A stretch of 64,000 nucleotides of DNA from Agromyces ramosus. Lineage in GTDB: Bacteria > Actinomycetota > Actinomycetes > Actinomycetales > Microbacteriaceae. The first letter of the stretch is position 1, and the number at the start of each line of letters is the position of its first letter. The stretch lies in NCBI RefSeq assembly GCF_030817175.1, contig NZ_JAUSYY010000001.1:1860001-1924000 (forward strand), read 5' to 3'. This document shows positions 26,497-42,568 of this stretch, piece by piece. The position numbers and the translations under genes were made by a program. Under the pieces are notes generated by a model. That model had not been told where the DNA came from, made no database searches, and was given only the letters and a program-made list of their open reading frames with translations.

Positions 26497-27570
26497 ATGG
26501 GGTCACAGCGAGCAGCGGATGACGCCGGCCGACGGCCGAGCATCGCCGCCGTCGCGGCCCTCGCCGGCGTCTCGCCCACGACGGTGTCGCACGCGTTGAG
26601 CGGAACGAGGGCGGTGCGCGCCGAGACGCGCGAGCGTGTCATCCGTGCCGCCGCCCAGCTCGGCTACACCCCGAATCGCCTCGCGAGCGGTCTCCGCCTG
26701 CAGCGCACCGGCGTGATCGGGCTCGCGAGCGATCGCATCGCGACGACGGCGTTCGCGGGCCGGATCGTGCAGGGTGCGCAAGAGGCGGCGCGCGAGCGCG
26801 ACGCCGTGCTGATGATCGTCGACTCCGAGGGCGACGCCGAACTCGAGGCGCGGCAGCTGCGCTCGCTCCTCGACCACCGCGTCGACGGCATCCTCCTCGC
26901 CCGCATGTTCCACCAGCAGGTTGCGCGGCCTGAAGCCCTCGGCAGCACGCCTGTCGTGCTCGTCGACGCGACGCCCGCCGACGGATGGCGCGTGCCCGCC
27001 ATCGCGCCCGACGAGCACGCCATCGCCGTGACCGCCGTGGCGCACCTCCTCGCTGCGGGTCACCGGCGCATCGCGTTCGCGACGACGACGGATGACGCAC
27101 CGGCGAGCGGTGGGCGGGAGGCGGGCTTCCGCACGGCGCTCAAGGACGCCGGACTCGACGGATCCCGGGCACTCGTCGAGCGCGGGTCATCCGACTCGCA
27201 CGGAGGACGCACCGCCGGGCGCCGCCTCCTCGACCGGCCCGAGGCAGAGCGGCCGACCGCCGTGTTCTGCTTCAACGACCAGATGGCCATGGGCGTGTAC
27301 CAGGCGGCGGCGGGGCTGGGCCTCGACGTGCCGCGCGACTGCTCGGTGGTCGGCGTCGACGATCTCGACCTCGTCGCCGGGGCGCTCGATCCGGCCCTCA
27401 CGACGATCGCGCTGCCGCATCGTGAGATGGGCCGCTGGGGCATGACCACGCTCCTCGACCTGATCGACGCCTCGGGTCACGGGCGGTCACGGGCGACGGA
27501 TGTCTCAGCGCCGGTGCATCTCCGCTGCAAGCTCGTCGAACGGGGCTCGGTGATGCCGCCTCGACCCTGA
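26497..27570 (+). CDS. LacI-family regulator 1 (fructan island)
   Basis: A 357-residue repressor. The N-terminal helix-turn-helix reads PSIAAVAALAGVSPTTVSHALSGTRAV, with hinge helix LGYTPNRLASGLRLQ, followed by a periplasmic-binding-like sugar domain (VIGLASDRIATTAFAGRIVQG, then FCFNDQMAMGVYQAA, then VGVDDLDL). It ends 10 bases before the stop of the convergent membrane-anchored GH32 gene and is its likely regulator. The palindrome CAAATCGATTTG in that GH32 promoter is a candidate operator. ATG 26497 has no strong ribosome-binding site. Confidence 0.9.
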   Translation: MGSQRAADDAGRRPSIAAVAALAGVSPTTVSHALSGTRAVRAETRERVIRAAAQLGYTPNRLASGLRLQRTGVIGLASDRIATTAFAGRIVQGAQEAARERDAVLMIVDSEGDAELEARQLRSLLDHRVDGILLARMFHQQVARPEALGSTPVVLVDATPADGWRVPAIAPDEHAIAVTAVAHLLAAGHRRIAFATTTDDAPASGGREAGFRTALKDAGLDGSRALVERGSSDSHGGRTAGRRLLDRPEAERPTAVFCFNDQMAMGVYQAAAGLGLDVPRDCSVVGVDDLDLVAGALDPALTTIALPHREMGRWGMTTLLDLIDASGHGRSRATDVSAPVHLRCKLVERGSVMPPRP

Positions 27571-27579
27571 GCACGCTGG

Positions 27580-29319
27580 TCAGCGTTCGGCGGGAGCCCG
27601 CCCGGGCGCGCGCTCGACGGGCGCGACAGCGAGGGGTGCGAGCCGAACCGAGCGGAGCTCGGTGGAACCGCCGACCGACTCCACCGAGAGGCCGTTCGCA
27701 CCGGGCGCGCCGAATGCGAGGTTCGAGAGCACCGACTCGCCGCCGTTGACGAAGACCTCGATCGAGCCGGCGTCGACGATGAGGTCGAGGGTGACGATGC
27801 CGTCGCGCGGTGGCGCCGGTGCCGTGCGCACCTCGCGGTAGACCGGCGGCATCGTGGCGGCGACGGCATCGTGGTCGCGAGCGACGAATGCGACGCCCGC
27901 CGCGAAGTCGACGCCGACGGTGGCGAACGCGCCGTCGCCCTCCTTGACGCGGAAGCGCACCTCCGCTGCGGGGTCGTCCGGGTCGGGCGCGACCTCGACG
28001 CGCAGCCGGTAGGCGTCGGAGTGCGGTTGGGGGAGCGGGGTGCTCGCGGCATCCGTCACCCGCAGGTCCTCGGACGTCTGGGCTTCGCCCTCGAGCGCAG
28101 CGAGCGCGTCGACCGGCGCCGACACGAGCGTCGGCCTGCCATCGACGGTGCGAAGCCTGAGCTCGCGCACAGCCGAGTCGGCACCGCCGTGCCAGTCGGT
28201 GGTCGGCAGCTCGCCCGCGTAGGCCCAATTGTTCAGCCACCCGATCGCATACCGCGAGGCGAGCCGGTCGGCGGGGGACTCGCGAGGGTCGTCCCAGGTG
28301 ACCGCGGCGTAGAAGTCGGCGCCGCGGTCGAGCCAGGCCACGACGGGGTCGGTGGCGGTGAAGGTCTCGCCGCTCCAGTCGCCGGTCCAGTAGGCGGTGC
28401 CGGTGGTCATGCCCTGCGAGGCACCGTTGACCCCGGCCGCGAGCACCCAGGTGGTCTTCGACGGATCGCCGTCGAGGGACATCCGGAACAGGTCCGGGCA
28501 CTCGAGGATGCCGAGGTCGCCGGGCTCGAAGCTCGAGCGATACGTCCACGCCTTCAGGTCGGGGGAGGTGTAGAAGCCGAGCCTGTGCCCCTCGGCGAGC
28601 ACCATGAGCCACTCGCCGTGCGCGTCGTCCCAGATGATCTTGGGGTCGCGCCAGTGCGCCTCACCCGGGTTGTCCATGACGGGGTTGCCGTCGTACGCCT
28701 CGAACCGGTACCCGCCGTCAGTCGAGACGAAGAGCGACTGCCGCTGCACCCCCTCGTGCTGCTGGGTCATGATCGCGATGACCGCGCCGGCGCCGAAGCC
28801 GGCCGTGTTCTCGGTGTCGACCACTGCGCTGCCGGTCTCGATGTCGCCCAGGCCGTTCGCGTACTTCTCGATGGCGACGCCCTCGTCGCGCCAGTGCACG
28901 AGGTCGGTCGACGTCGCGTGGTACCACTCGGTGCCGTTCCCCTCGGGGTAGTCGGCGTTGTAGAGGTAGTAGTAGTGCCAGCGGCCGTCGTTCCAGAACG
29001 GGCGCTGCGGGTCGTTCATCCAGCGCTCGGCCGGGGTCAGGTGCACGGCGGGGCGGTAGGGCGACCAGTCGGGGGGTCGCATGTAGTCGGGCGCGGCGGC
29101 CGGCGAGGTCGGCGCGGGCGCCGCCGTGGCGTTCGGATGCTCCGGAGCCCGGCTGCCCGGCGCGAGCACGAGCGCGGCGACGACGGTCACGGCAACGGCC
29201 ACCGCGGTCGCGACGATGATGATGACCGCGCGCGGGGCGACGCCCGGGCGTCGCCATGGGCCCGAGCGCGCACGCGTCACCGTGCCGTCCGGCACGTCAG
29301 GTGGGTGTGTTCGGTTCAT
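27580..29319 (-). CDS. Membrane-anchored GH32 fructan hydrolase
   Basis: A 579-residue enzyme held at the outer face of the membrane by an N-terminal helix (31-53, AVIIIVATAVAVAVTVVAALVL) and a Pro/Ala linker. The GH32 propeller has the nucleophile Asp103 in WMNDP, Asp225 in HWRDPK and the acid/base Glu273 in ILECPDLF. A C-terminal beta-sandwich ends around 565. After WMNDP the usual Asn-Gly is replaced by Gln-Arg (WMNDPQRP), so substrate preference may differ from standard invertases or levanases. ATG 29319 has GGAGG four bases upstream. Confidence 0.9.
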   Translation of the reverse strand: MNRTHPPDVPDGTVTRARSGPWRRPGVAPRAVIIIVATAVAVAVTVVAALVLAPGSRAPEHPNATAAPAPTSPAAAPDYMRPPDWSPYRPAVHLTPAERWMNDPQRPFWNDGRWHYYYLYNADYPEGNGTEWYHATSTDLVHWRDEGVAIEKYANGLGDIETGSAVVDTENTAGFGAGAVIAIMTQQHEGVQRQSLFVSTDGGYRFEAYDGNPVMDNPGEAHWRDPKIIWDDAHGEWLMVLAEGHRLGFYTSPDLKAWTYRSSFEPGDLGILECPDLFRMSLDGDPSKTTWVLAAGVNGASQGMTTGTAYWTGDWSGETFTATDPVVAWLDRGADFYAAVTWDDPRESPADRLASRYAIGWLNNWAYAGELPTTDWHGGADSAVRELRLRTVDGRPTLVSAPVDALAALEGEAQTSEDLRVTDAASTPLPQPHSDAYRLRVEVAPDPDDPAAEVRFRVKEGDGAFATVGVDFAAGVAFVARDHDAVAATMPPVYREVRTAPAPPRDGIVTLDLIVDAGSIEVFVNGGESVLSNLAFGAPGANGLSVESVGGSTELRSVRLAPLAVAPVERAPGRAPAER

Positions 29320-29450
29320 GATCCTCCGTGGTGGTTCGCACACCGCCGTGCCGTCAGACCCGCCTTGCGCGGTGGTCGTCGGAACCGGCGATGCACCTTC
29401 GCAGCTGTCTGTGGGGAGGAGCGCAAGCGCCACTCGAGGAATCGTCGGCC

Positions 29451-29479
29451 ACGCTAACGGCTACCAAATCGATTTGCAA
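29451..29479 (-). promoter_or_regulatory. Promoter of the membrane GH32 with LacI-type operator CAAATCGATTTG
   Basis: On the minus strand TTGCAA (29474-29479), a 17-base spacer and TAGCGT (29451-29456) form a sigma70-like promoter. The perfect 12-bp palindrome CAAATCGATTTG (29465-29476) overlaps the -35 box and spacer, so binding there should block RNA polymerase. The leader would be about 125 bases. The 29320-29681 spacer holds this promoter and that of levansucrase, and no gene. Confidence 0.6.
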
Positions 29480-29585
29480 ACTTCACCAATACGATCGCCA
29501 CCGTGGAAGCGCGACCATCGTCGGTACACCGCTGATCTGGGAATTTGCATGCGAACGCACGCATCGCATCAACTGGCCGGCCCAC

Positions 29586-29615
29586 TTGACAACGTTGTCA
29601 GTCTCGGCATAGGTT
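29586..29615 (+). promoter_or_regulatory. Levansucrase promoter and fructan operator
   Basis: TTGACA (29586-29591), 18 bases, TAGGTT (29610-29615). The perfect palindrome TGACAACGTTGTCA (29587-29600) lies over the -35 box. The same operator, with one or two changes, stands at four other places in the island. Repression by the LacI protein at 37216-38277 is the natural reading. Confidence 0.75.
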
Positions 29616-29681
29616 CCTGTGTCGGGGGAGCACAAGCGTCGCGGTTTCGAGGAAGTACCTCATCCACGAAAGGCGACGAAC

Positions 29682-31271
29682 ATGTCAACATCCATCGGGC
29701 GCATCAGGCGCCCACTCATCGGCGGGATGGTCGCGGCCGGCGCGCTGGTCGCGACCCTCTTCACCGGCACGGCGGGAGCCGTCGCCGCGCCCGAGGACCT
29801 GCAGCCGGGCCCTGAGCCGACCCTGCACACGCAGGAGGCCTACGCGCCAGAGGACGACTTCACCGCGAAGTGGACCCGCGCCGACGCACGCCAGCTGAAG
29901 CGCCTGTCGGACCCGGCCGCGCCGTCGCGCGAGAACTCGATGCCGGCCGCGCTCACCATGCCGACGGTGCCGCAGGACTTCCCCGACATGTCGAACGGCG
30001 AGGTCTGGGTCTGGGACACCTGGCCGCTGACCGATGAGGCCGGCAACCAGTACAGCGTCAACGGCCAGGAGATCATCTTCTCGCTCGTGGCGGACCGCAG
30101 CCTCGGCTTTGACGACCGGCACGTCTTCGCGAAGATCGGGTACTTCTTCCGCCCGGCCGGCGTCCCCGCCGACGAGCGGCCGGAGAACGGCGGCTGGACG
30201 TACGGCGGCCTCGTCTTCGACGAGGGCGTGACCGGCCAGATCTTCGAGGACCAGTCGTACAGCCACCAGACCCAGTGGTCGGGCTCGGCACGCATCATGA
30301 AGGGCGGCGAGATCAAGCTCTTCTTCACGGATGTCGCGTTCTACCGTGACGCCGCGGGCAACAACATCAAGCCCTACGACCCGCGCATCGCGCTGAGCGT
30401 CGGACACGTCCACGCCAACAAGAACGGCGTGAAGTTCACCGGCTTCGACAAGGTCACGAGCCTGCTCGAGGCCGACGGCACGTACTACCAGACCGGCGAG
30501 CAGAACGAGTTCTTCAACTTCCGCGACCCCTTCACCTTCGAGGACCCGAACCACCCGGGCGAGACGTACATGGTGTTCGAGGGCAACTCGGCCATGCCGC
30601 GCGAGTCTGCCCAGTGCACCGAGGAGGACCTCGGCTACCGCGAGGGCGACCCCTATGCCGAGTCGGTCGACGCGGTCAACGCCTCGGGCGCGACTTACCA
30701 GATCGGCAACATCGGACTCGCGAAGGCGAAGAACGACGACCTCACCGAGTGGGAGTTCCTGCCGCCGATCCTCTCGGCGAACTGCGTCACCGACCAGACC
30801 GAGCGGCCGCAGTTCGTGTTCCAGGACGGCAAGGCGTACCTCTTCACGATCAGCCACCGCGGCACCTTCGCGAACGGCATCGACGGCCCCGAGGGCGTCT
30901 ACGGCTTCGTCGGCGACGGCATCCGCAGCGACTTCCAGCCGCTGAACGGCGGATCGGGCCTCGCGCTCGGCAACCCGACGAACCTGAACTTCGCCGGCGG
31001 CCAGCCGTTCGCGCCCGACTACAACCAGCACCCGGGTCACTTCCAGGCGTACTCGCACTACGTGATGCCCGGCGGACTGGTGCAGTCGTTCATCGACACC
31101 ATCGGCACCCACGATGACTTCGTGCGCGGCGGCACGCTCGCCCCGACCGTGAAGATCGACCTCGATGGCGCCGACAGCGCCGTCGACTACACCTACGGCA
31201 ACGGCGGGCTGGGCGGCTGGGCCGACATCCCGGCGAACCTCGACGTCAATTCCGGCGGCAAGGTGCAGTAA
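29682..31271 (+). CDS. Secreted levansucrase-type fructosyltransferase (GH68)
   Basis: A 529-residue exported enzyme that transfers fructose from sucrose to a growing levan or inulin chain, or to water. The signal peptide ends near AGAVAA-PED. The GH68 propeller has nucleophile Asp112 in VWDTW, transition-state stabiliser Asp282 in FRDPF and acid/base Glu374 in TERPQF. The usual GH68 segment HVHANKNGVKFTGFD is present. Levan rather than inulin is an inference. ATG 29682 follows AAAGG at the right distance. No cell-wall anchor is seen, so it is released. Control is by the operator at 29587. Confidence 0.92.
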   Translation: MSTSIGRIRRPLIGGMVAAGALVATLFTGTAGAVAAPEDLQPGPEPTLHTQEAYAPEDDFTAKWTRADARQLKRLSDPAAPSRENSMPAALTMPTVPQDFPDMSNGEVWVWDTWPLTDEAGNQYSVNGQEIIFSLVADRSLGFDDRHVFAKIGYFFRPAGVPADERPENGGWTYGGLVFDEGVTGQIFEDQSYSHQTQWSGSARIMKGGEIKLFFTDVAFYRDAAGNNIKPYDPRIALSVGHVHANKNGVKFTGFDKVTSLLEADGTYYQTGEQNEFFNFRDPFTFEDPNHPGETYMVFEGNSAMPRESAQCTEEDLGYREGDPYAESVDAVNASGATYQIGNIGLAKAKNDDLTEWEFLPPILSANCVTDQTERPQFVFQDGKAYLFTISHRGTFANGIDGPEGVYGFVGDGIRSDFQPLNGGSGLALGNPTNLNFAGGQPFAPDYNQHPGHFQAYSHYVMPGGLVQSFIDTIGTHDDFVRGGTLAPTVKIDLDGADSAVDYTYGNGGLGGWADIPANLDVNSGGKVQ

Positions 31272-31284
31272 GCGGTTCGAACGA

Positions 31285-31319
31285 CGGATGCCCCGGGGAT
31301 GCGATCCCCGGGGCATCCG
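31285..31319. terminator. Bidirectional terminator between levansucrase and the small ORF
   Basis: A perfect 16-bp stem (31285-31300 with 31304-31319, arm CGGATGCCCCGGGGAT) with a three-base loop lies between two convergent genes and can serve both strands. Confidence 0.85.
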
Positions 31320-31363
31320 CTCGTGTACCGCGCCGCGATACGGCGGCGGGAGGCGAGCGCGGT

Positions 31364-31480
31364 CTACAGCGCGTGGGCGGGGATGGCTCCCATCAGGCCC
31401 ACGGCGAGCACCGCGAGCACCGCGAGCGCGCTCATTGCGGCCGCTGCACCGGCGGTGCGCCAGTGTGATTTCGTCGTCAT
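31364..31480 (-). CDS. 38-residue signal-peptide-only ORF with a fructan-type promoter
   Basis: The product begins MTTKS, like the 983-residue GH32 downstream. It continues as a hydrophobic helix and ends two residues after an Ala-x-Ala-like site (IPAHAL), so it is essentially a signal peptide. ATG 31480 follows GAAGGG at seven bases. Its upstream 90 bases repeat those of the GH32: -35, -10, operator, and the ATGAAGGGC before the start. It is either the remnant of a duplicated exported enzyme gene or a small secreted/membrane peptide. Retention of promoter, operator and ribosome-binding site speaks for some function; the abrupt stop speaks for a remnant. Confidence 0.55.
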   Translation of the reverse strand: MTTKSHWRTAGAAAAMSALAVLAVLAVGLMGAIPAHAL

Positions 31481-31515
31481 GGTCGGTCTTGCCCTTCATG
31501 GGTCACGATGTCAGG

Positions 31516-31569
31516 TGACATCGTTGTCAGTCAGGCGGCGATGTTACACACCATGCCGAGTGGCCGCAA
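31516..31569 (-). promoter_or_regulatory. Promoter and fructan operator of the 38-residue ORF
   Basis: Minus strand: TTGCGG (31564-31569), 17 bases, TAACAT (31541-31546), then the operator TGACATCGTTGTCA (31516-31529, plus-strand reading) just after the expected transcript start. Layout and sequence match the promoter of the secreted GH32 at 34659-34715. Confidence 0.65.
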
Positions 31570-31618
31570 GAGGACATCGGACGTTTGCCAGCGCGGCCCG
31601 TGCTCGGCATCGTCCACA

Positions 31619-31660
31619 GCGGGTGGGATGCGACGGTCAGCAACGCCGCATCCCACCCGC
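31619..31660 (-). terminator. Terminator after the secreted GH32
   Basis: A perfect 14-bp stem (31619-31632 with 31647-31660, arm GCGGGTGGGATGCG) and a 14-base loop start five bases past the stop codon at 31666. Confidence 0.8.
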
Positions 31661-31665
31661 ACCGC

Positions 31666-34617
31666 TCAGCCGGCGACCCGCACGAGGAGCTCACCCGCGC
31701 GCGTGACGCCGGCCGAGTTCTCGAGCTCGACCGTGTAGCGGTGCTCGCCGGGTGCGGCATCCGTCACCGCGAAGGCGAGCGTGCGTTCCGAGGCCGCCGT
31801 CCGGAACATCCGATCGATGACGCGGCCGTCTTCGAGCAGTCGCACCACCGTGGTCACCCCGCCCTTGCCGACCTTGACCTTGATCCCGAAGTCACCGTCG
31901 GCATCGGGCCCCTTCCGCGGTCCGGTGAGCGCCGTGACCTCGGCAGCCGGGGGAGCGGCCGTTGCGTCGTCGACGCCCGCCTCCTTGTACATCGCGCCGT
32001 GCATCGGCGTCACCGTGAGCGACTCGAGCGTCGCGCCCTCGCCGTCGGCCCAGAGCCCGATCGCGTCGGCGCCCGCGTTCGGGAACACCTGGTCGGTGAT
32101 CGTCGTGCGCCCGTCGGCCGTGAACACCTCGACCGATGAGCGGTCGACGTACACCGTCAATGCCAGGCGCCCGTCGTCGAGGGCCACCGGGGCATCGTCG
32201 AGCGAGGCGAACGCCGGGTGGAACCCCGTGCTCCCCGAGTCGCGGCGGTCGACGAACAGGCGGCCGGATGCCGCGTCGTACCCGATGCGCGTCGCCGACT
32301 CGTCGTCGCCCAGCACGCTGAGCCCGACCGCATCGGCATCGCCGGGCGCGATCACCGCGTCGATGCGCACGACGTCACCCGAGACGGACAGCGTCTCGGA
32401 GCCCGCCGCGATCGGCCGCGCGGCATCCGTGTACGCCCGATCGCTCTGCTCGAGCTCGGCGAACTCGGGGACGACCTCCTGCACGAGTCGCGGCCCGCGC
32501 TCGGTCGTCACGAGTGACACGTCCCGCGGCAGCGCCATCGCGCTGCGCCACGAGCCCGTCGGGATGTCGTTGGCGTAGTCCCAGTTGTTCATCCAGCCGA
32601 GCATCACGCGGCGGCCGTCGGGCGCGTTGCTGAACGACACGGTCGCGTAGTAGTCGCGCCCCCAGTCGAGCCAGTCGTAGCCCTCGAGGCGCGGTGCGGC
32701 CGCGGCATCCGAGAACATCACCTGGTCGACGAGCACGTGACCCCAGCCGAACCGGTTGTTGTCGATGATGCGAACGGATGCCTCCTGCCCGGCGAACTCG
32801 GCCACGTTCCAGTTCACCCAGTCGAGGTTCTCGCTGTTGCGGCCCGTGGCCGAGCGAACGATCTCGCCGTCGACGACGAGGTTGACGCTCGTCTCCTCCG
32901 AGCGTGCCTGCGCCGGCTCCGCGCCCAGCACGAGGTGGTCGAGCGTGAGGTGGCCCCAGCCGCCCGTGGCGTCGTCGTGCACCTGGACGCGTGCGTCACG
33001 CCCGGCGAACTCCGAGACCTCCCACGACTGCCAGTTCAGCTGTCCTGCCTCGGGGCCGGTGGCGGTGCGCACGACCTCGCCGTCGACGAGGAGCCGCAGC
33101 TCGAGCGTGCCGTTGAATCGCTTGCCGCCGCCGAGGAGGAAGGAGAGATGGTGCTCGTCGGCGCCGATCGTGAACGCGGGCGAGGTGAGGTCGCCCCGGT
33201 TGGTGTCGCCGAACGGGCCGGCCTCGAAGGTGTTGATGCGCTTCTGACCGAGGTAGTAGTCGCCGCCCTGCGTCGACGGGCTGCGGCTCGGGTCGATCGC
33301 GAGGTCACCCGTCGCCTCCCAGCCGGTGTCGGCCAGCGTCGTGCCGTCGGGGAACTCGAAGCCCTCGAAGAGCAGCCGGCCGGGGGGTGGCTCGTTGCCG
33401 AGCTGCGTGCCGTCGACGTGCGGATGGTTGCCGCCGCCGACGAGGAGGTTCACGAACGGGCGATCGATGGTGAACGTCGACGACTCGAGCGTGCCGACGG
33501 GCCAGTCGCCGTCGTTGAAGCCGTTCACCAGGCCGCCACCGATGAAGCCCGACACGGCGTTCTGCCCGGGCAGCGTTCCCCCGGCCGGGGCGTCGCCCCA
33601 CGGTCCGTTCTTCCAGTTGCCGGGTTCGTTGCCGACGGCCCAGTCGCCGTACGTGCCGTCGTCGAACCCCTCGAAGAGGTCGCCGGCCGGCACCGCGGCA
33701 TCCGACACCGTGCTCTCGGAGGTGAAGGTGGTGCCGTCGAACTCGCCGACGAAGTACTGCCCGCCGGAACCGCCGGCGACAGAGCCGGGGTTGAGGTTCA
33801 CGACGAGCACCCACTTCGTGTTCGCCGGGTCGCCGTCGACCGGGAGCGGGAAGAGGTCGGGGCACTCCCAGATGCCGCCGGTCGCGTTCGCAGGCCCGAA
33901 GTCGCTGAGGTGCGTCCAGTTCTTGAGGTCGTCGCTGCGGTACAGCACCACCTTGTACTGCAGTGCCTCCACGGCGACCATGACCCAGTACGACTCGCCC
34001 GTCTCGGGGTCGGTGTACCGCACGACCTTCGGGTCGCGGAAGTTCGCGGAATCGCGGTCGAGCACGGGGTTGCCCTCGTACTTGGTCCACGTCTGCCCGT
34101 CGTCGAGGCTGTAGGCGAGCGACTGGGCCTGCTCGCCTGCGTGCGTCGGGTGCGACGGCGTGTACGCGCTCGTGTAGATCGCGACCATCGGCGGGTTCTC
34201 GGCGGTGCCCAGACCGCTCGCGTTCTCGTCGTCGACGACGACCGAGCCCGAGAAGATGTCCTCGATCGCGACACCCTGCTCGTCGAACGTCTGGGGGATC
34301 GCGACCGGCTGCTCCTCCCAGTGCACGAGGTCGGCGGAGGTCGCGTGGCCCCAGCTCATGTTGCCCCAGCGCGTGCCGTGCGGGTTGTGCTGGAAGAACA
34401 GGTGCCACGTGCCGTCGTGGTAGACGAGGCCGTTCGGGTCGTTCATCCAGTTGCGTTCGGGCGAGAAGTGCAGGTACGGCCGGTACTGCTCTGTCGCCGG
34501 GTCGGGACCGTCGTCGGCCATCGCTGGCACGGCGGGCACGGCGCCCAGCATGCCGAGCGCGAGTGCGGCGGCGGCGGCCGTCGCTGCGGCCCTGCGCCCT
34601 AATGATTTCGTCGTCAT
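31666..34617 (-). CDS. Secreted GH32 fructanase (levanase-type) with nested inserted domains
   Basis: A 983-residue exported enzyme. Signal peptide about 1-34; GH32 propeller with nucleophile Asp60 in WMNDPNG, Asp195 in FRDPK and acid/base Glu251 in WECPDLF. The propeller breaks off near residue 300 and resumes near 650 (DWGRDYYATVSFSN, GWMNNWDYAND). The inserted 340 residues hold two related units. One starts LFEGFDDGTYGDW and stops at LVGGGNHPH (about 400); the second (LFEGFEFPDG to DHLVLG, about 416-565) sits inside it; the first then resumes (SVNLVVDGEIVRSATG to FSD, 577-637). A C-terminal GH32 sandwich and a further beta domain follow. It probably releases fructose from levan. Confidence 0.92.
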   Translation of the reverse strand: MTTKSLGRRAAATAAAAALALGMLGAVPAVPAMADDGPDPATEQYRPYLHFSPERNWMNDPNGLVYHDGTWHLFFQHNPHGTRWGNMSWGHATSADLVHWEEQPVAIPQTFDEQGVAIEDIFSGSVVVDDENASGLGTAENPPMVAIYTSAYTPSHPTHAGEQAQSLAYSLDDGQTWTKYEGNPVLDRDSANFRDPKVVRYTDPETGESYWVMVAVEALQYKVVLYRSDDLKNWTHLSDFGPANATGGIWECPDLFPLPVDGDPANTKWVLVVNLNPGSVAGGSGGQYFVGEFDGTTFTSESTVSDAAVPAGDLFEGFDDGTYGDWAVGNEPGNWKNGPWGDAPAGGTLPGQNAVSGFIGGGLVNGFNDGDWPVGTLESSTFTIDRPFVNLLVGGGNHPHVDGTQLGNEPPPGRLLFEGFEFPDGTTLADTGWEATGDLAIDPSRSPSTQGGDYYLGQKRINTFEAGPFGDTNRGDLTSPAFTIGADEHHLSFLLGGGKRFNGTLELRLLVDGEVVRTATGPEAGQLNWQSWEVSEFAGRDARVQVHDDATGGWGHLTLDHLVLGAEPAQARSEETSVNLVVDGEIVRSATGRNSENLDWVNWNVAEFAGQEASVRIIDNNRFGWGHVLVDQVMFSDAAAAPRLEGYDWLDWGRDYYATVSFSNAPDGRRVMLGWMNNWDYANDIPTGSWRSAMALPRDVSLVTTERGPRLVQEVVPEFAELEQSDRAYTDAARPIAAGSETLSVSGDVVRIDAVIAPGDADAVGLSVLGDDESATRIGYDAASGRLFVDRRDSGSTGFHPAFASLDDAPVALDDGRLALTVYVDRSSVEVFTADGRTTITDQVFPNAGADAIGLWADGEGATLESLTVTPMHGAMYKEAGVDDATAAPPAAEVTALTGPRKGPDADGDFGIKVKVGKGGVTTVVRLLEDGRVIDRMFRTAASERTLAFAVTDAAPGEHRYTVELENSAGVTRAGELLVRVAG

Positions 34618-34658
34618 CGTTCCATTCGCCCTTCATCGCGCGAGTCTCGATGCCCTAG

Positions 34659-34715
34659 TGACATCGTTGTCAGTCAATGTCGGCGATGTTACGGAGTGTC
34701 CGGCGGACATTGCAA
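34659..34715 (-). promoter_or_regulatory. Promoter and fructan operator of the secreted GH32
   Basis: Minus strand: TTGCAA (34710-34715), 18 bases, TAACAT (34686-34691), then TGACATCGTTGTCA (34659-34672, plus-strand reading) starting about eight bases into the transcript. A repressor there would act as a roadblock or stop promoter clearance. Confidence 0.7.
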
Positions 34716-34763
34716 GGGGCTCGGCGGATGCACCTGCGCCCACCCGGCCCGTACCCTCGATGC

Positions 34764-35315
34764 ATGCACCACGCGCGCATCCGTCCCGCCGTGATCGCCG
34801 ACGCTCCCGGCATCGCCCGCGTGCACTGGGACAGCCACCAGACCACCTACGTCGAGCCCGGCCGTGTCGCCCGCGACCGGGTCGAGGCGTGGACCATGTC
34901 CGATCGGGTCGCGCGGTGGACCGCCAACCTCGCCATCGCGAACGACGTCTACCCGGCGCCCGAGGGCTTCCACCGCATGGCGATCTGGGTGGCCGTGGTG
35001 GACGGCGGCGGGGGCGGCGACCGCGATGGCGGCGACGGCCAGGTCGTCGGCTGGGCGAACACGAGCGCCGGCCGCGACCCCGACGGCCCGCGCGACCTCG
35101 AGCTCGAGGGGCTCTACGTGCTCGACGCGAACCACGGCACCGGCGTCGGCCAAGCGCTGCTCGACGTGGCGATCGGCGACCGCCCCGCCTACCTCTGGGC
35201 ACTCGCCGACAACCCCCGCGCCCACGCGTTCTACCGGCGCAACGGCTTCGTCGCCGACGGCACCGAGAAGGTCGACCCGTTCTGGGAGATCACCGAGGTG
35301 CGCTTCGTGCGCTGA
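34764..35315 (+). CDS. GNAT-family N-acetyltransferase
   Basis: A 183-residue cytoplasmic acyl-CoA transferase. It opens with the usual first strand (ARIRPAVIADAPGIARVHWDSHQTTY). The acetyl-CoA site lies at LEGLYVLDANHGTGVGQALLDVAIG, followed by LWALADNPRAHAFYRRNGFVADG. A Gly/Asp-rich loop (about 82-91) is unusual. It diverges from the secreted GH32 and has no visible link to fructan use. Substrate unknown. Confidence 0.88.
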   Translation: MHHARIRPAVIADAPGIARVHWDSHQTTYVEPGRVARDRVEAWTMSDRVARWTANLAIANDVYPAPEGFHRMAIWVAVVDGGGGGDRDGGDGQVVGWANTSAGRDPDGPRDLELEGLYVLDANHGTGVGQALLDVAIGDRPAYLWALADNPRAHAFYRRNGFVADGTEKVDPFWEITEVRFVR

Positions 35316-35359
35316 GCGGAGCGCCCCCGGGCTGTGCGCCTCACGCCGCCGTGACGACC

Positions 35360-36151
35360 TCACACGAGCGACAGCACGAACGACAGGACGAATCCGGCAG
35401 CCGTGCTGATCGCCACGGCCGGCCCGCCGTGCTCGTAGGCCTCGGGCATGAGCGTGTCGGCGAGGGAGGCGATCACCGCGCCGGCGGCGAATGCCAACGG
35501 CAGCGAGACGGTCTCCGGATCGGTGTTCGCGAGCGGGCCTGCGCCCACGACCACGGCGACGACGAGGAGTACCGCGCAGATGGACCACATCACGATCACG
35601 CTGGCGACCGATCGCCCTTGGCTCCGCATCGAGGATGCCCCGACGAGCGCCTCCGGCAGGTTGGACACGAAGATGGCCGCGAGGAGCGCGAGCCCTCCGG
35701 TGCCCTCACCGAGCGACACACCCAGGGCGATGTTCTCGGGAACGCCGTCGAGGGTCACGGCGGCGAGGAGGGCCGTGCCCGCAGCGCCGCGGGTCGAGGC
35801 GGCGGTGGGCGACCGCTCCGAGGCCGCGGCATCGGTGTCGAGCTTCGCGCTGCCCCGGTACTCGTCGGCCGGCTTCTCGGACGATGAGGGCTGGGCCCAG
35901 CGATCGAGCAGCGCGCTCAGCACGGTGAACGCGACCGCACCGATGAGCAGGCCGATGGCGGCACGCCAGATGCCGCCGCGCTCGTAGGCGTCCTCGAACA
36001 GCTCGAAGGTGAGCGCCGTGATCAGCGCACCGGCGGCGAACGAGAGGAGGATCGCGAGCGCGCGTTTCGGGAGCTGGAAGCGGACACCGATGAATGCGCC
36101 GACCAGCAATGCGCTGGACGCCACGACTCCGAACAGCACCGCCGTGCCCAC
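35360..36151 (-). CDS. ZIP-family divalent metal transporter
   Basis: A 263-residue membrane protein with about eight helices. The metal site in helix 4 reads LDGVPENIALGVSLG and helix 5 has SNLPEALVGASS, the ZIP signatures. A cytoplasmic loop of about 45 residues between helices 3 and 4 is Ser/Ala/Asp-rich, without the usual His cluster. It imports zinc or another divalent metal (family knowledge). The start is GTG 36151. It is a single gene between GNAT and the kinase; a 109-base spacer on its upstream side shows nothing notable. Confidence 0.87.
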   Translation of the reverse strand: MGTAVLFGVVASSALLVGAFIGVRFQLPKRALAILLSFAAGALITALTFELFEDAYERGGIWRAAIGLLIGAVAFTVLSALLDRWAQPSSSEKPADEYRGSAKLDTDAAASERSPTAASTRGAAGTALLAAVTLDGVPENIALGVSLGEGTGGLALLAAIFVSNLPEALVGASSMRSQGRSVASVIVMWSICAVLLVVAVVVGAGPLANTDPETVSLPLAFAAGAVIASLADTLMPEAYEHGGPAVAISTAAGFVLSFVLSLV

Positions 36152-36260
36152 GCCGTCAGTATCGAACGCAGTGCGGTGTGTCGGAAGCGGCTTGCGAAAC
36201 GGCTCTGGTGTGCGTCAGCGCGGGCGGTGCCTCAGCGCGGCGTGCCGCTCTCGGCGTGCC

Positions 36261-37211
36261 TCAGCTCGGGAGCGCGGCCTCGGTGGCGGCCTCGGCGTGC
36301 GGCATCCGCAGCAGTGCTCCCTCGTGGCGCACCGTGGCCGCCGCGATCACCATCGCCTCGTGGAGGGCATGCGCCCACGCCTTGCCGGTCGTCGGCAGCC
36401 CGTCGGCGGCGATGCGCCGCACGATCGCGGCGAGGGTCGCGTCGCCGGCGCCCATGGTGTCGACGACCGGGCCGGGGAGGGGCACGATGCGGGCCTCGAC
36501 CGTGCGGTCGCCGAAGTGCAGGGTGGCGCCGTTGCGTCCGGCTGTCGCGAGCACCGCCCCTGCCCCGGCACTACGAAGGCGCTCGACGAACGCGTCGAGC
36601 GAGTCGCCGAGGAGCAGCGCGGCGTCTTCGTCGCCGACCTTCGCGAGCAGCGCCCGCGAGGCGAAGTCCTCGAAGTTGGCCAAGAACACCGCCGTGTCGG
36701 CGAGCATGCCCGCACGCGGGTTGCCGTCGACGATGACTCGCAGCCCAGGTCGGTCGATCGCGGCGACGAGCCCGGCGTACTGCCCGGCGTCGTCGAACGG
36801 GAAGCAGCTCACGACCACGAGATCGGCCTCGTCGATCGCGGCGCGAGTCGCCTCGTCGAACCGGATGCCACGCCGCCGCGCGGCCTCGTTGAACTCGTAG
36901 CGCGGCTCGCCGTCGCGGCGGTCGGAGACGGCACGCGCTGTGCCGAGGGGCGACGGACTCTCGACGAGCCGAACGCCGTAGTCGCGCAGGTAGGAGCGGA
37001 TGCGCCCGGCGGGCTCGTCGTCGCCGAGCATGGCGACGAGCGTCACCTGCTCGCCGAGGCGGGCGAGCCCGACCGCCACGTTCAGCGCGGCGCCGCCGAC
37101 GAACTCGCGCGAGCCGTCGGGGTCGCGGAGCTCGTCGATGAGCGCGTCGCCGATGACGGTGATACGGCGCGACGGCGGTGCGTGCTGCGGGAGCAGCTGA
37201 TGCTGCGGCAT
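36261..37211 (-). CDS. PfkB-family sugar kinase, probable fructokinase
   Basis: A 316-residue ribokinase-fold enzyme: ITVIGDALIDELRD, the PfkB signature GGAALNVAVGLARLGEQV, and the ATP/catalytic motif DTMGAGDATLAAIV near the C-terminus. It lies four bases after the stop of LacI regulator 2 and so is in its operon. It faces the FrcBCA transporter across the shared control region, which makes fructose the likely substrate, giving fructose 6-phosphate. ATG 37211 is preferred; GTG 37229 would overlap the regulator gene by 14 bases. Confidence 0.85.
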   Translation of the reverse strand: MPQHQLLPQHAPPSRRITVIGDALIDELRDPDGSREFVGGAALNVAVGLARLGEQVTLVAMLGDDEPAGRIRSYLRDYGVRLVESPSPLGTARAVSDRRDGEPRYEFNEAARRRGIRFDEATRAAIDEADLVVVSCFPFDDAGQYAGLVAAIDRPGLRVIVDGNPRAGMLADTAVFLANFEDFASRALLAKVGDEDAALLLGDSLDAFVERLRSAGAGAVLATAGRNGATLHFGDRTVEARIVPLPGPVVDTMGAGDATLAAIVRRIAADGLPTTGKAWAHALHEAMVIAAATVRHEGALLRMPHAEAATEAALPS

Positions 37212-37215
37212 CCGC

Positions 37216-38277
37216 TCAGCCCTGCCCACGCGGTGCGATCTCGCCGCTGCCGCGTTCGATCAGCCGCGTCGGCACGACCGTGCGGGCAGCGGGGGAGACG
37301 TCGCCGTCGAGGCGCGCGAACACGCGTTCGGCGGCGGTGCGCCCGATCTGCTGCGGGTCCTGCGCGACGACGGTGATGCCCGGTTCGAGGAGGTCGGCGA
37401 GGGGGAGGTCGTCGAAGCCCACGAGCGCGATGTCGCGGTGGCGACCGAGCTCGCGCAACGCGTGGACGACGCCGAGGGTGACGAGGTTCTGGCTCGAGAA
37501 GATCGCGGTCGGCGGATTCGGGGTCTCGAAGAGCGCGAGGGTCGCGGCGCGTGCGGACTCCGCGTCGTGCAGGTCCTCGATGATCGGCACGTCGCGCGTC
37601 GCGACCCCGGCACGGCCGAGCTCTTCGAGAAAGCCGCGGCGGCGTTCGCGGGCGGTCTGGATCAGGGGTCGGTCGCCGAGGTAGGCCACCCGCCGGTGCC
37701 CGCGTTCGAGCAGGTGTCGCGTGGCGAGGGCGGCGCCGTCGGCGTTGTCGCTGACGACGGAGTCGGAGGTGATGCCGGCAGGCTCGCGGTCGACGAAGAC
37801 GACGGGAGTGCCCCGGCGAAGCTCGGGGGCGAGGTAGGCCTGGCTCTCGGTGACCGTCGTCAGGATGAGCCCGTCGACACGGCGACGGAGGAAGGCCGAC
37901 ACCGCTTCCTGCTCGCGGGCCGGGTCGTCGTCGAGGCTCGAGGCGAAGACGGCGACGCCGCGGGCGAGCGCGGCATCTTCGACGGCTCGGTGCACGGCGC
38001 CCGCGAACGGGTTGTCGACGCTGCCGACGAGGAGCCCGAGGGTGCGGGTGCGCCCGTCGGCTCGGCGCAGGTTTCCGGCGTGCAGGTCGGGCTGGTAGTC
38101 GAGGGTGCGCGCCGCGGCGTTCACCTTGGCGATCGTCGCGGCCGAGACGTTCGGCTCGCCGTTGATGACGCGGGAGACGGTCTTCACGCCGACCCCGGCG
38201 AGGGCGGCGACATGCCGCATCGTGGGGCGGGAGCGTGCGCCCTCCGGTGCGGAACTTGTGTCTGACAACGGTGTCAC
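37216..38277 (-). CDS. LacI-family regulator 2, probable fructan/fructose repressor
   Basis: A 353-residue repressor. The helix-turn-helix is PTMRHVAALAGVGVKTVSRVINGEPNV with hinge helix LDYQPDLHAGNLRR, then a sugar-binding domain (LGLLVGSVDNPFAGAVHRAVED, AIFSSQNLVTLGVVHAL, VGFDDLPLADLL). GTG 38277 is preferred because GGAGAG lies six bases upstream. The operator-like TGACAACGGTGTCA (38263-38276) lies within its first five codons, consistent with autoregulation. It is co-transcribed with the kinase and divergent from the frcBCA-type operon. Confidence 0.9.
   Translation of the reverse strand: MTPLSDTSSAPEGARSRPTMRHVAALAGVGVKTVSRVINGEPNVSAATIAKVNAAARTLDYQPDLHAGNLRRADGRTRTLGLLVGSVDNPFAGAVHRAVEDAALARGVAVFASSLDDDPAREQEAVSAFLRRRVDGLILTTVTESQAYLAPELRRGTPVVFVDREPAGITSDSVVSDNADGAALATRHLLERGHRRVAYLGDRPLIQTARERRRGFLEELGRAGVATRDVPIIEDLHDAESARAATLALFETPNPPTAIFSSQNLVTLGVVHALRELGRHRDIALVGFDDLPLADLLEPGITVVAQDPQQIGRTAAERVFARLDGDVSPAARTVVPTRLIERGSGEIAPRGQG
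38263..38276. promoter_or_regulatory. Operator inside the first codons of LacI regulator 2
   Basis: TGACAACGGTGTCA is a 14-bp palindrome with one mismatch of the island-wide TGACAnCGnTGTCA type. It covers codons 1-5 of the regulator gene and could block its transcription, or act with the site at 38342. Confidence 0.6.
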
Positions 38278-38305
38278 GATTTGCTCTCCAATGTGCAAGT
38301 TGGAC

Positions 38306-38355
38306 TTGACTATACACACCGACATGGTCTAGACCTAACGTTGACATCGTTGTCA
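38306..38355 (+). promoter_or_regulatory. Promoter and operator of the fructose ABC transporter operon
   Basis: TTGACT (38306-38311), 18 bases, TAGACC (38330-38335), then TGACATCGTTGTCA (38342-38355) at or just after the start of transcription. A second palindrome, GGTCTAGACC, occupies 38326-38335 over the -10 region. TATAGT on the minus strand (38309-38314) may be the -10 box of the regulator gene. Confidence 0.65.
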
Positions 38356-38393
38356 GGGAGACAACGGTCCCCCACACCAGAGGAGATTCATCG

Positions 38394-39494
38394 ATGAATC
38401 GCACGGCACCGGCGACACTCCGTCGCCGCATCATCATGGCCGGGTCGCTCACCGCGGCTGCGGCCCTCGCCTTCACCGGCTGCGCTTCGGGCGCCTCCGG
38501 CTCCGGCGACGACTCGAACGGCGGCGAGACGATCGGCGTCTCGCTCATCGTCAAGACGACCACCAACCCCTTCTTCGTCGCCATGCAGGACGGCGCCGAG
38601 GCGGCCGCCGATGAGCTCGGCGTCGACCTCACCCTGGCGGCAGGCAAGGAGGACGGCGACGAGGACACCCAGATCCAGGCCGTGGAGAACGCCATCTCGA
38701 AGGGCGACGCGGGCATCCTGATCACCCCCAACGGCCCGGGCGTCGAAGACGCGCTCATCAAGGCGCGTGACGCCGGCCTGTTCGTCATCGCGCTCGACAC
38801 GCCGCCCGCCGACCCCGAGGCCGTCGACATCACCTTCGCGACCGACAACTTCCTCGCCGGCCAGGAGATCGGCAAGTGGACCGCCGCGAAGCTCGCGGGC
38901 GAGAAGGCGACGATCGCACTCGTCGACCTCTTCGACGACAAGATCGTGTCGGTCGACTACAACCGCGACCAGGGCTTCCTCGACGGCATGGGCATCGACA
39001 CCGCCGACGCGGCGGTGAACGGCGACGAAGAGGCCACCGGCACGTACAGCGGCGGCGACTACGAGATCGTCGGCAATGAGGCATCCGGCGGCGCTGAAGA
39101 CGGCGGACGCACGGCGGCCGAGACCCTGCTCTCGAAGAACCCCGACATCAACGTGGTCTACACGATCAACGAGCCCGCCGCCTACGGCGCATACGAGGCG
39201 TTCAAGGCTGCCGGTAAGACCGAGGGCCTCATCGTCGTGTCGATCGACGGCGGCTGCGCCGGAGTCGACCAGGTGAAGGAGGGCATCATCGGCGCAACGA
39301 GCCAGCAGTACCCGGTCAAGATGGCCGAGCTCGGCGTGAAGGCGATCCATGACCTCGTGAAGACCGGCGACAAGCCAGAGAACACCGAGGGCCTCGACTT
39401 CTACAACACCGGCGTCGCCCTCGTGACGGATGACCCGCAAGACGGCGTCGAGTCGATCGACACCGCCGAAGCTGCCGAGATCTGCTGGGGCTGA
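38394..39494 (+). CDS. frcB: FrcB-like sugar-binding lipoprotein
   Basis: Substrate-binding protein of a CUT2-type ABC importer, 366 residues. The lipobox is LAFTGC with Cys30. The mature part starts IGVSLIVKTTTNPFFVAMQDGAEAAADEL, the pattern of the fructose-binding FrcB and ribose-binding families. Later segments are ILITPNGPGVEDALIKARDAG and VVYTINEPAAYGAYEAFKAAG. Fructose as ligand is inferred from family resemblance and the surrounding GH32/GH68/kinase genes. It is first in the operon, with an intercistronic hairpin after it that would favour higher levels of the binding protein. Confidence 0.88.
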   Translation: MNRTAPATLRRRIIMAGSLTAAAALAFTGCASGASGSGDDSNGGETIGVSLIVKTTTNPFFVAMQDGAEAAADELGVDLTLAAGKEDGDEDTQIQAVENAISKGDAGILITPNGPGVEDALIKARDAGLFVIALDTPPADPEAVDITFATDNFLAGQEIGKWTAAKLAGEKATIALVDLFDDKIVSVDYNRDQGFLDGMGIDTADAAVNGDEEATGTYSGGDYEIVGNEASGGAEDGGRTAAETLLSKNPDINVVYTINEPAAYGAYEAFKAAGKTEGLIVVSIDGGCAGVDQVKEGIIGATSQQYPVKMAELGVKAIHDLVKTGDKPENTEGLDFYNTGVALVTDDPQDGVESIDTAEAAEICWG

Positions 39495-39503
39495 GCCCCG
39501 GCA

Positions 39504-39523
39504 CCGCACCGTGAGGGGTGCGG
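39504..39523 (+). other. Intercistronic hairpin after frcB
   Basis: A seven-bp stem (CCGCACC, 39504-39510, with GGTGCGG, 39517-39523) and six-base loop in the 115-base gap to the permease gene. It probably stabilises the frcB message or partly stops transcription, as is usual after binding-protein genes. A weaker GGATGCC/GGCATCC pair follows at 39533-39562. Confidence 0.5.
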
Positions 39524-39609
39524 GTCGGTGACGGATGCCGCACGCACGTGCTCGTGGCATCCCACGCATCCCGGCCCGCACCACCTCACCCACACATCGG
39601 AGTACCAAC

Positions 39610-40653
39610 GTGAGTCAGCAGACCACCACCGAGCCGCCGACCTCGGCGCTCGACCTGGCCGAGGAGTTCCTCGACCGCACCACCCCGCTCAGCCGCATCC
39701 GCAATACCCTGCACCGCTACCCGGCCATCAGCCCGGCGATCGTGCTCGTGCTCGCCGTCATCGTGTTCGGCCTGCTCAACGATCGATTCCTCAACCCGGC
39801 GAACCTCTCGCTCATCACGCAGCAGGTGGCCGTCGTCGGCACCCTCGCGATCGCACAGACGCTCATCATCCTGACCGCCGGCATCGACCTCTCGGTCGGC
39901 GCCGTCATGGTGCTGAGCTCGATGGTGATCGCCCAGTCCACCGTGCAGCTCGGCCTGCCGGCCGTGCTCGGCCTGTTCCTCGGCCTCGTCGTCGGCCTCG
40001 GCGCCGGGGCGCTCAACGGATTCCTCGTCACGCGCCTGAAGCTGCCGCCGTTCATCGTGACGCTCGGCACGCTCAACATCTTCGTCGCGCTCACGCTGCT
40101 GTACTCGGGCGGCGCCACGATCCGCGGCGCCGAGATGCCCGACCTGCTCACCTGGACGGGCACGACCTTCAGCCTCGGCGGCGTGAACATCACGGTCGGC
40201 GTGCTCATGATGCTCCTGCTGTATGTGGCGATCGCGTTCATCCTGCAGAAGACCGCGTGGGGCCGGCACGTGTACGCGGTCGGCGACGACCCCGAGTCGG
40301 CACGCCTCGCGGGCATCCGGGTGAACCGCGTGCTCATGAGCGTCTACCTCGCGGCCGGGGCGATCCTCGCCGTCGGCGCGTGGATCCAGATCGGTCGCAC
40401 CAACGCCGCCTCGCCGAACGCGGGCGTCGACCTCAACCTCGACTCGATCACCGCCGTCGTCATCGGCGGCACGAGCCTCTTCGGCGGCCGCGGCACCGTG
40501 TGGGGCACCCTCCTCGGCGCCCTCATCGTGGGCGTGTTCCGCAACGGGCTCTCACTCGCCGGGCTCGACGTGCTCTGGCAGACCTTCGCCGTCGGCGTGC
40601 TCATCGTCGTCGCCGTCTCGGTCGACCAGTGGATCCGAAAGGTACGCAAATGA
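39610..40653 (+). CDS. frcC: FrcC-like ABC transporter permease
   Basis: A 347-residue CUT2-family permease with about eight to ten membrane helices. The conserved CUT2 stretch LTAGIDLSVGAVMVLSSMV is followed by a second, NLDSITAVVIGGTSLFGGRGTVWGTLLGALI, that contacts the ATPase. GTG 39610 has GGAG eight bases upstream. Its stop overlaps the ATPase start as ATGA, so the two are translationally coupled. Confidence 0.9.
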   Translation: MSQQTTTEPPTSALDLAEEFLDRTTPLSRIRNTLHRYPAISPAIVLVLAVIVFGLLNDRFLNPANLSLITQQVAVVGTLAIAQTLIILTAGIDLSVGAVMVLSSMVIAQSTVQLGLPAVLGLFLGLVVGLGAGALNGFLVTRLKLPPFIVTLGTLNIFVALTLLYSGGATIRGAEMPDLLTWTGTTFSLGGVNITVGVLMMLLLYVAIAFILQKTAWGRHVYAVGDDPESARLAGIRVNRVLMSVYLAAGAILAVGAWIQIGRTNAASPNAGVDLNLDSITAVVIGGTSLFGGRGTVWGTLLGALIVGVFRNGLSLAGLDVLWQTFAVGVLIVVAVSVDQWIRKVRK

Positions 40654-41453
40654 CCATCGCAACGGATGCCGCGGGCGCCACGCCCGCGGTCGAGACTCGC
40701 AGCCCGATCCTCAGCGCGCGACGCCTCGTGAAGACGTTCGGCCGCGTCGTCGGCCTCGACGGGGTGAGCCTCGAGCTCTACCCGGGAGAGGTGCTCGCCA
40801 TCATCGGCGACAACGGCGCCGGCAAGTCCACGCTCATCAAGTGCCTCACGGGCGCCGAGATCCCCGACGAGGGCGAGATCTTCCTCGACGGCAAGCCGGT
40901 GCACTTCAAGCGCCCGCAGGACGCCCGGGCGGCCGGCATCGAGACCGTGTACCAGAACCTCGCCGTCTCGCCGGCCCTCGACGTGGCCGCGAACCTCTTC
41001 CTCGGCCGCGAGGAGCGTAAGCCGGGCATCCTCGGCTCGGTCTTCCGCATCGTCGACCAGAAGGGCATGCGCGACAAGGCCCGCGCCGAGCTGAAGTCGC
41101 TCGGCATCTCGACGCTGCAGGACGTCACGGTGCCGGTCGAGAACCTGTCGGGCGGGCAGCGCCAGGCGGTCGCGGTCGCGCGCGCCGCGGCGTTCGGGTC
41201 GAAGGTCGTCGTGCTCGACGAGCCGACCGCCGCACTCGGCGTGCGCGAGTCGAACCAAGTGCTCGAGCTCATCCGCAACCTGCGCGAGCGCGGCATCCCC
41301 GTGATCCTCATCTCGCACAACATGCCGCACGTGTTCGACGTCGCCGACCGCATCCACATCCAGCGGCTCGGCAAGCGCGCCGCGACGATCACGCCCGAGT
41401 CGCACACGATGACCGACGCCGTCGCGATCATGACGGGCGCGCTGCGCCCGTGA
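40650..41453 (+). CDS. frcA: FrcA-like ABC transporter ATPase
   Basis: A 267-residue single nucleotide-binding domain: Walker A GDNGAGKST at 53-61, Q-loop YQNLAV, signature LSGGQRQAVAVARA, Walker B VVVLDEPTAALG and switch His in LISHNM. Most CUT2 importers use a double-domain ATPase of about 500 residues (RbsA type). The single-domain form is typical of the fructose system FrcA and supports that assignment. It overlaps the permease gene and, by GTGA, the following monooxygenase-like gene. Confidence 0.9.
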   Translation: MTIATDAAGATPAVETRSPILSARRLVKTFGRVVGLDGVSLELYPGEVLAIIGDNGAGKSTLIKCLTGAEIPDEGEIFLDGKPVHFKRPQDARAAGIETVYQNLAVSPALDVAANLFLGREERKPGILGSVFRIVDQKGMRDKARAELKSLGISTLQDVTVPVENLSGGQRQAVAVARAAAFGSKVVVLDEPTAALGVRESNQVLELIRNLRERGIPVILISHNMPHVFDVADRIHIQRLGKRAATITPESHTMTDAVAIMTGALRP

Positions 41454-41803: not shown

Positions 41804-41912
41804 CGGGAACCGCGGCCGCACCCGCGCCCACTCGAGCTGAGGCGGGCGGGTATGGCCGGGCACGGGGGAGGGAACGGGATCGGCTACCGTGGGGAGGACC
41901 CCGAGGAGCTCC

Positions 41913-42551: not shown

Positions 42552-42568
42552 GCGCACCCACGACGCGG

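Follow-up and report, generated by a model that had tools for sequence, protein, structure and literature searches.

Which regulator acts on the putative fructan genes of Agromyces ramosus, and how far does its control extend? Here, we address this question for a 64,000-nucleotide (nt) stretch of the genome (NCBI RefSeq assembly GCF_030817175.1, contig NZ_JAUSYY010000001.1, positions 1,860,001 to 1,924,000; the window, in which all coordinates are given unless stated otherwise). In this window, five copies of the 14-bp palindrome TGACAnCGnTGTCA (the operator) lie among genes for a levansucrase-type enzyme, a large secreted GH32 protein, a sugar ABC transporter, a sugar kinase, and the LacI-family protein LacI regulator 2 (LacI2). 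The first-pass annotation of this DNA had named LacI2 as the probable repressor and had proposed that all of these genes are switched as one unit. We report that the presence of the operator follows that of the LacI2 orthologue in the genus and in the family, and we conclude that LacI2 is very likely the repressor of all five sites. The sites, their uniqueness in the genome, the families of the adjoining genes, and the conservation and co-occurrence with the regulator are direct observations.

The operator and the genes that it adjoins

The exact operator is present five times in the 4,012,902-base genome (one contig), and all five copies lie inside 9 kb, at 29587-29600, 31516-31529, 34659-34672, 38263-38276, and 38342-38355; from base composition, 0.078 copies are expected by chance per genome and 0.00017 in 8.8 kb. 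All five sites listed in the first-pass annotation are exact, and the whole-genome scan that it had called for returned these five exact copies and no other. With one mismatch, the pattern is found at 10 further places in this genome, while the reversed pattern, used as a control, is found at one place with at most one mismatch and at none exactly. Five of the 10 one-mismatch sites are located inside a probable open frame; all 10 were checked for open frames rather than for homology, and we assigned none of them to the regulon. The operators and the features around them are the following.

29587..29600: operator 1, TGACAACGTTGTCA, overlapping the −35 of the levansucrase gene (TTGACA, N18, TAGGTT)
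29682..31271, plus strand: GH68 levansucrase-type enzyme (Pfam PF02435, 472 bits)
31281..31324: strong GC-rich hairpin between the stops of the levansucrase and microprotein genes, from a folding computation
31364..31480, minus strand: conserved 38-residue microprotein, MTTKSHWRTAGAAAAMSALAVLAVLAVGLMGAIPAHAL
31516..31529: operator 2, before the microprotein (TTGCGG, N17, TAACAT, operator 11 nt on)
31666..34617, minus strand: GH32a, a large secreted GH32 protein of 983 aa (Pfam PF00251 and PF08244)
34659..34672: operator 3, 41 nt 5' of the GH32a start codon (TTGCAA, N18, TAACAT, operator 13 nt on)
36261..37229, minus strand: PfkB-family sugar kinase (Pfam PF00294), overlapping the end of lacI2
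37216..38277, minus strand: LacI2 (Pfam PF00356, 58 bits, and PF13377, 122 bits, both above gathering scores)
38263..38276: operator 4, inside codons 1-5 of lacI2, which has a GTG start at 38277
38306..38335: overlapping divergent promoters; TTGACTATA is the rightward −35 (TTGACT, N18, TAGACC), and the reverse strand holds the lacI2 −10 (TATAGT)
38342..38355: operator 5, 6 nt past the −10 of the transporter operon
38394..41453, plus strand: ribose/allose-type sugar ABC transporter (Pfam PF13407, PF02653, and PF00005)

LacI2 and the operator across genomes

The co-occurrence of LacI2 and the operator was analyzed in a genus set of 60 genomes, including that of A. ramosus itself (G000), and in 299 genomes sampled from the family. 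At E 1e-60, LacI2 has matches in 34 of the genus genomes, of which 29 contain orthologues with 79-100% identity (the one in G021 is partial and split over contigs) and five contain only paralogues with 40-44% identity. The exact operator is present in all 29 orthologue-bearing genomes, with three to eight copies in each, whereas 28 of the 31 genomes without an orthologue lack it and G036, G040, and G055 have one copy each (Fisher test, p 4e-14); for the reversed control, all 60 genomes lack an exact match. In the family sample, the refined motif TGACAHCGDTGTCA is present in 39 of the 43 genomes in which LacI2 has a homologue (E 1e-85) vs 40 of the 256 others (p 3e-22; LacI2 and motif were counted by hand, and the two samples were taken as one and the same set), and its reversed control in eight of the 299. 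As the first-pass annotation had stated, the lacI2 gene also touches two of the sites, with 38263-38276 located in its first codons and 38342-38355 paired to it. These observations support the earlier suggestion that LacI2 is the probable repressor, and the proposed link between LacI2 and the operator is about as strong as sequence comparison allows. We are confident, as part of the overall best explanation, that TGACAHCGDTGTCA is the operator of LacI2.

Within the genus, the sites are concentrated at a small set of genes. The 29 LacI2 genomes contain 122 exact sites, and by hand count, 102 of these are at fructan or transporter genes or at the microprotein, i.e., 58 at the lacI2/transporter pair, 26 at GH32a, 12 at GH68, five at the microprotein, and one at another GH32 gene in G008. 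GH32a is present in 26 of the 60 genomes, all among the 29 with LacI2, and has an exact site just 5' in 26/26; at E 1e-150, it was found in none of the 31 genus genomes lacking LacI2. GH68 is present in 16 genomes, all with LacI2, and has an exact site in 12 of them. These counts bear on the possibility that LacI2 serves the transporter and kinase as a local regulator, the sites at levansucrase and at GH32 being weak or incidental. Paired sites at loci of Leifsonia, Cryobacterium, and Glycomyces, with no GH68 or GH32a homologue within the examined flanks, fit such a local role; however, the GH32a site is exact and conserved in position in every genus genome with the gene, the GH68 site is kept in 12/16, and GH32a homologues at five loci of other genera (L110, L111, L113, L115, and L121, though not L128) have exact sites 5' of the gene. 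We therefore regard a purely local role of LacI2 as very unlikely.

Several observations weigh against LacI2 as the sole user of the operator and against a uniform regulon. Outside the genus, 40 of 256 LacI2-less genomes contain TGACAHCGDTGTCA, which argues that the motif is not exclusive to LacI2 there and is shared by other regulators, and four LacI2-bearing genomes (G099, G207, G249, and G305) have no exact copy. In the genus, 20 of the 122 exact sites are elsewhere: four precede a different LacI gene (in G002, G003, G044, and G048, one per genome), two are before CUT1-type binding-protein genes, two beside LacI2 paralogues, five near proteins of 1,239-1,257 residues (the one scanned, at L167, has F5/8 type C domains), and one at a contig end; the other six are unassigned. 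The levansucrase gene lacks an exact site in three of 15 testable genomes (G003, G008, and G048; G011 is cut off by a contig end), as does the second GH68 copy of G002. In other genera, the GH32a homologue of L128 (62% identity) has no nearby site, and a Herbiconiux locus with LacI2 at 63% identity (L114) has no site and no transporter within 10-kb flanks.

Some of these observations would be explained if the motif were common to several LacI regulators of one cell, such that the sites answered to more than one repressor. Along with the LacI2-less family genomes, this possibility is favored by two LacI2 paralogues of the A. ramosus genome (42% and 37% identity), whose genes lie no more than about 3.5 kb from a one-mismatch site, that of the 37% paralogue being the nearest to it, and by the paralogues that G016, G036, G040, and G049 encode next to TGACAGCG-type sites; the lone exact sites of G036 and G040 adjoin paralogues with 41-43% identity. 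However, the inner bases differ, in that a G follows TGACA at the paralogue sites but at no fructan-gene site on either strand, and nearly all LacI2-less Agromyces genomes (28/31) are without an exact site. We consider such sharing at the five sites unlikely and keep LacI2 as their preferred regulator.

The region of the A. ramosus genome that follows the window (L160, contig positions 1924001-1940000) contains a sugar ABC cluster, the genes of both paralogues, and the one-mismatch site TGACAACGCTGACA; the one-mismatch hit at contig position 1933264 belongs to this cluster. At L161 (5470-9100), a GH92-type protein is encoded divergently from a LacI2 paralogue, with TGACAGCGTTGTCA in between. 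Four genomes (loci L153, L157, L164, and L174) have an exact operator 64-69 nt 5' of a further LacI gene, and a gene for a solute-binding lipoprotein comes after that LacI gene. The other LacI gene with exact sites is found only in G002, G003, G044, and G048 among the 60 genomes (E 1e-120), and it may be either a target of LacI2 or itself a user of the motif.

A second LacI-family protein is encoded near the levansucrase end of the cluster, in a region with the following features.

26497..27570: LacI regulator 1 (LacI1), LacI-family by Pfam
27580..29433, minus strand: GH32b, a second secreted GH32 protein (Pfam PF00251 and PF08244), divergent from the levansucrase gene; its true start is probably 29319
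29465..29476: palindrome CAAATCGATTTG, different from the TGACA motif, 5' of GH32b

The palindrome at 29465-29476 is the sole copy of CAAANCGNTTTG in the window, and all ten additional loci that were checked have CAAANCGNTTTG 5' of GH32b; these loci represent nine genomes (two are from G002; only matches with at least 57% identity and an aligned start were considered). GH32b is thus apparently controlled via this palindrome and not via the TGACA motif, and the intergenic region between levansucrase and GH32b seems to hold two different switches. The palindrome is a candidate operator of LacI1 or of another LacI protein; it is present without LacI1 (E 1e-90) in G002, G003, G021, and G048, which makes LacI1 only a possible regulator of it. 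CAAANCGNTTTG is similar to the PurR half-site, and PurR shares the recognition-helix histidine of LacI1.

The position of the LacI1 gene raises the possibility that LacI1 binds the five operators and that LacI2 is a bystander. However, LacI1 is found at E 1e-90 in only 12 of the 60 genus genomes, all of which also have LacI2, whereas the sites are found in 29, and a different palindrome precedes GH32b in the window and in nine other genomes. The recognition helices point in the same direction. LacI2 has VKTVSR, the 42% paralogue in the same genome AKTVSR, and the paralogues beside TGACAGCG-type sites LKT[VA]SR, giving the latter and LacI2 the common helix K-T-[VA]-S-R; LacI1 has PTTVSH instead of K-T-V-S-R, and the extra LacI protein of G003 has ISTVSL. 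Arginine and histidine at that helix position are expected to select different half-sites. Control of the five operators by LacI1 is, accordingly, most improbable, and LacI2 remains the regulator to which we assign them.

Operator placement and the proposed circuit

LacI2 contains a LacI-type helix-turn-helix and a periplasmic-binding-protein-like ligand domain, i.e., the LacI-family architecture; none of the named NCBIfam LacI models (RbsR, PurR, D-fructose-responsive, and others) matched it at cut-off (best, lactose_RbsR with 189 vs 382 bits and fruct_sucro_rep with 160 vs 390). The operator is an even palindrome with a central CG and is located at promoters, including that of lacI2 itself, as is characteristic of this family. 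The promoters given here are based on a reading of hexamers and a comparison between species. The earlier claim that promoters can be drawn at the sites holds in that the hexamers are readable and conserved between species; however, an automatic promoter scan of 29400-38500 reported none, which counts against these assignments.

The two operators between lacI2 and the transporter genes form a conserved pair. In 58 distinct loci with both lacI2 and the binding-protein gene (105 loci were put in, many of them duplicates, with up to two mismatches allowed per operator), two operators are 77-80 bp apart in 58/58, including loci with LacI2 identity down to 54%. The spacing is 79 bp in 24 loci, 78 in 22, 77 in 11, and 80 in one; both operators are exact in 45 loci, and at least one is mismatched in 13. 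The TTGACTATA element between them is kept in most aligned rows but not in all (e.g., not in L140). We considered DNA looping between the paired operators and rejected it: the distance corresponds to about 7.3-7.6 helical turns, which is unfavorable, and LacI2, as we read its sequence, stops soon after the ligand domain, without an obvious tetramerization tail. The constant spacing is better explained by the two overlapping promoters between the sites.

The operator positions, i.e., over a −35, past a −10, and in start codons, suggest steric repression and autoregulation. We infer from sequence that LacI2 binds these sites, that its action is repression, and what its inducer may be, and we propose the following model. 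LacI2, a LacI-family repressor that is probably a dimer, would in the absence of inducer sit on the five sites and shut off transcription. At levansucrase, it would block the −35; at GH32a, the microprotein, and the transporter operon, the start region just past the −10; and at lacI2, the start of the gene itself. Extracellular cutting of fructan or sucrose would lead to accumulation of fructose or its phosphate and to release of LacI2, and this release would then increase fructanase, levansucrase, import, and phosphorylation. We hold it to be highly probable that this model as a whole, with LacI2 repressing via five TGACAHCGDTGTCA sites and being released by fructose or a phosphate of fructose, is correct.

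The predicted functions of the gene products are as follows. In the GH68 protein, the PF02435 match spans residues 59-507 and covers the catalytic domain; levan is its putative product. Both GH32a and GH32b contain the two GH32 domains, and a fructan is their predicted substrate. In GH32a, the Pfam match to the N-terminal domain is in two stretches, the best being residues 50-304, and the C-terminal domain starts at residue 722, which indicates a large insert with similar-looking segments in between. The kinase, which probably forms one operon with lacI2, is a probable fructokinase; its nearest solved sequences bear this name (E 9e-15), and it scores 63 of 450 bits with the NCBIfam fructokinase model. 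The transporter consists of a binding protein (38394-39494), a permease (ending at 40653), and a single-domain ATPase of 265 residues (ending at 41453), and all NCBIfam ribose-transporter models are below cut-off (RbsB 94 of 337, ribose permease 197 of 398, and RbsA 173 of 745). Based on gene context, fructose would be the transported sugar.

Regulon membership and the microprotein

Because GH32b is under another palindrome and levansucrase has no exact site in three of 15 genomes, the regulon is not one strict unit. The earlier picture of a single switch is thus retained for the sites at levansucrase, GH32a, the transporter, and lacI2-kinase but not for GH32b, nor for levansucrase in those three genomes; levan making is the loosest member. 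In two of these genomes, G003 and G048, a copy of the motif with two mismatches is located 462-469 nt 5' of the levansucrase gene. The distance from the levansucrase site to the gene is 81-100 nt in G000, G050, and G057 but 324-469 nt in eight other genomes.

The long levansucrase leaders of these eight other Agromyces genomes (e.g., L183, L182, and L185) are absent from the window. Comparison of 13 genomes showed that this leader can contain a short ORF with a GTG start, of 37 codons and similar in G002, G021, and G052 and of 26 codons in G003 and G048; the ORF is weak in G037 and has no match in the others by the start pattern used. A search of 26000-42600 against Rfam gave no match at gathering score. 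The hairpin at 31281..31324 is a possible common terminator of the levansucrase and microprotein genes.

The microprotein ORF, together with the operator before it, can be aligned to the promoter and signal-peptide region of GH32a, of which it is a paralogous copy. A peptide-alignment search of the genus set gave matches in 10 of 60 genomes at E 0.001; five genomes have the full ORF (G000, G002, G003, G044, and G048; E ≤6e-20), each with its own operator before it, and the remaining matches are GH32a leaders. In a 398-genome family sample with few Agromyces, only the genome of A. ramosus itself was matched at E 1e-5. Pairwise dN is 0.10-0.21, dS 0.45-0.92, and dN/dS 0.14-0.26 (rough values from 38-39 codons, leaving out the near-identical pair G002-G003). 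That the ORF is a mere relic of a GH32a promoter and leader was considered and dropped because the copies in G002, G003, G044, and G048 share the ORF end and differ mostly in third positions; those of G002 and G003 encode an identical peptide, so there are about four independent sequences. The hydrophobic stretch is longer than in GH32a leaders and is followed by no mature part, and the peptide probably forms one membrane-spanning segment. The odds are about even, in our view, that this ORF of 38-39 residues encodes a functional microprotein that is inducible, spans the membrane once, and is derived from GH32a; the GH32a operator, promoter, and signal peptide would have been copied downstream of the gene, the hydrophobic core lengthened, and the frame closed by a stop codon, with the new gene kept in the same repressor circuit. 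Such a microprotein might perhaps act on secretion or on the transporter, and it is an odd and apparently young component of the regulon.

Regulons of the LacI family reconstructed by comparative genomics typically have an even palindrome with a central CG, upstream sites, frequent autoregulation, and genes for sugar uptake and catabolism (PMC4052901), and the regulon predicted in the window resembles this norm in all four respects. In a table of that study, FruR and BfrR are the entries given for fructose and fructooligosaccharides, and its main text contains neither 'fructan' nor 'TGACA'. Similarly, FruR, BfrR, CscR, and ScrR of Bifidobacterium are actinobacterial regulators for the same sugars, i.e., fructose, fructooligosaccharides, and sucrose, and 'TGACA' is absent from the main text describing them (PMC4746261). 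In gene arrangement, the window resembles the frc genes of Sinorhizobium meliloti, which encode a fructose solute-binding protein, a permease, and an ABC protein, with frcR for a putative negative regulator divergent from them; FrcK has little in common with known sugar kinases and its role is described as unclear, and the portion of that account considered here describes no fructanase or levansucrase (PMC10433430). Levan-making and levan-cutting genes are also adjacent in Bacillus subtilis (sacB, levB, and yveB) and Cellulosimicrobium cellulans MP1 (sacC1-levB-sacC2-ls); there, however, they are reported in shared operons, whereas in the window separate transcription units are tied together by copies of one operator (PMC11540611). 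Among titles and abstract openings in the open-access literature, we found no published account of this regulon or motif.

Altogether, our findings describe a LacI regulon that is ordinary in kind and uncommon in its membership, which joins levan synthesis and breakdown. LacI2 with its predicted operator is a concrete candidate pair for the control of fructan metabolism, both in Agromyces and in actinobacteria related to it, and predicts regulon members in dozens of sequenced species. The microprotein would be a small case of a gene apparently built from a promoter and a signal peptide. Moreover, levan synthesis would be tied to levan breakdown and sugar import via one repressor and not via one operon.

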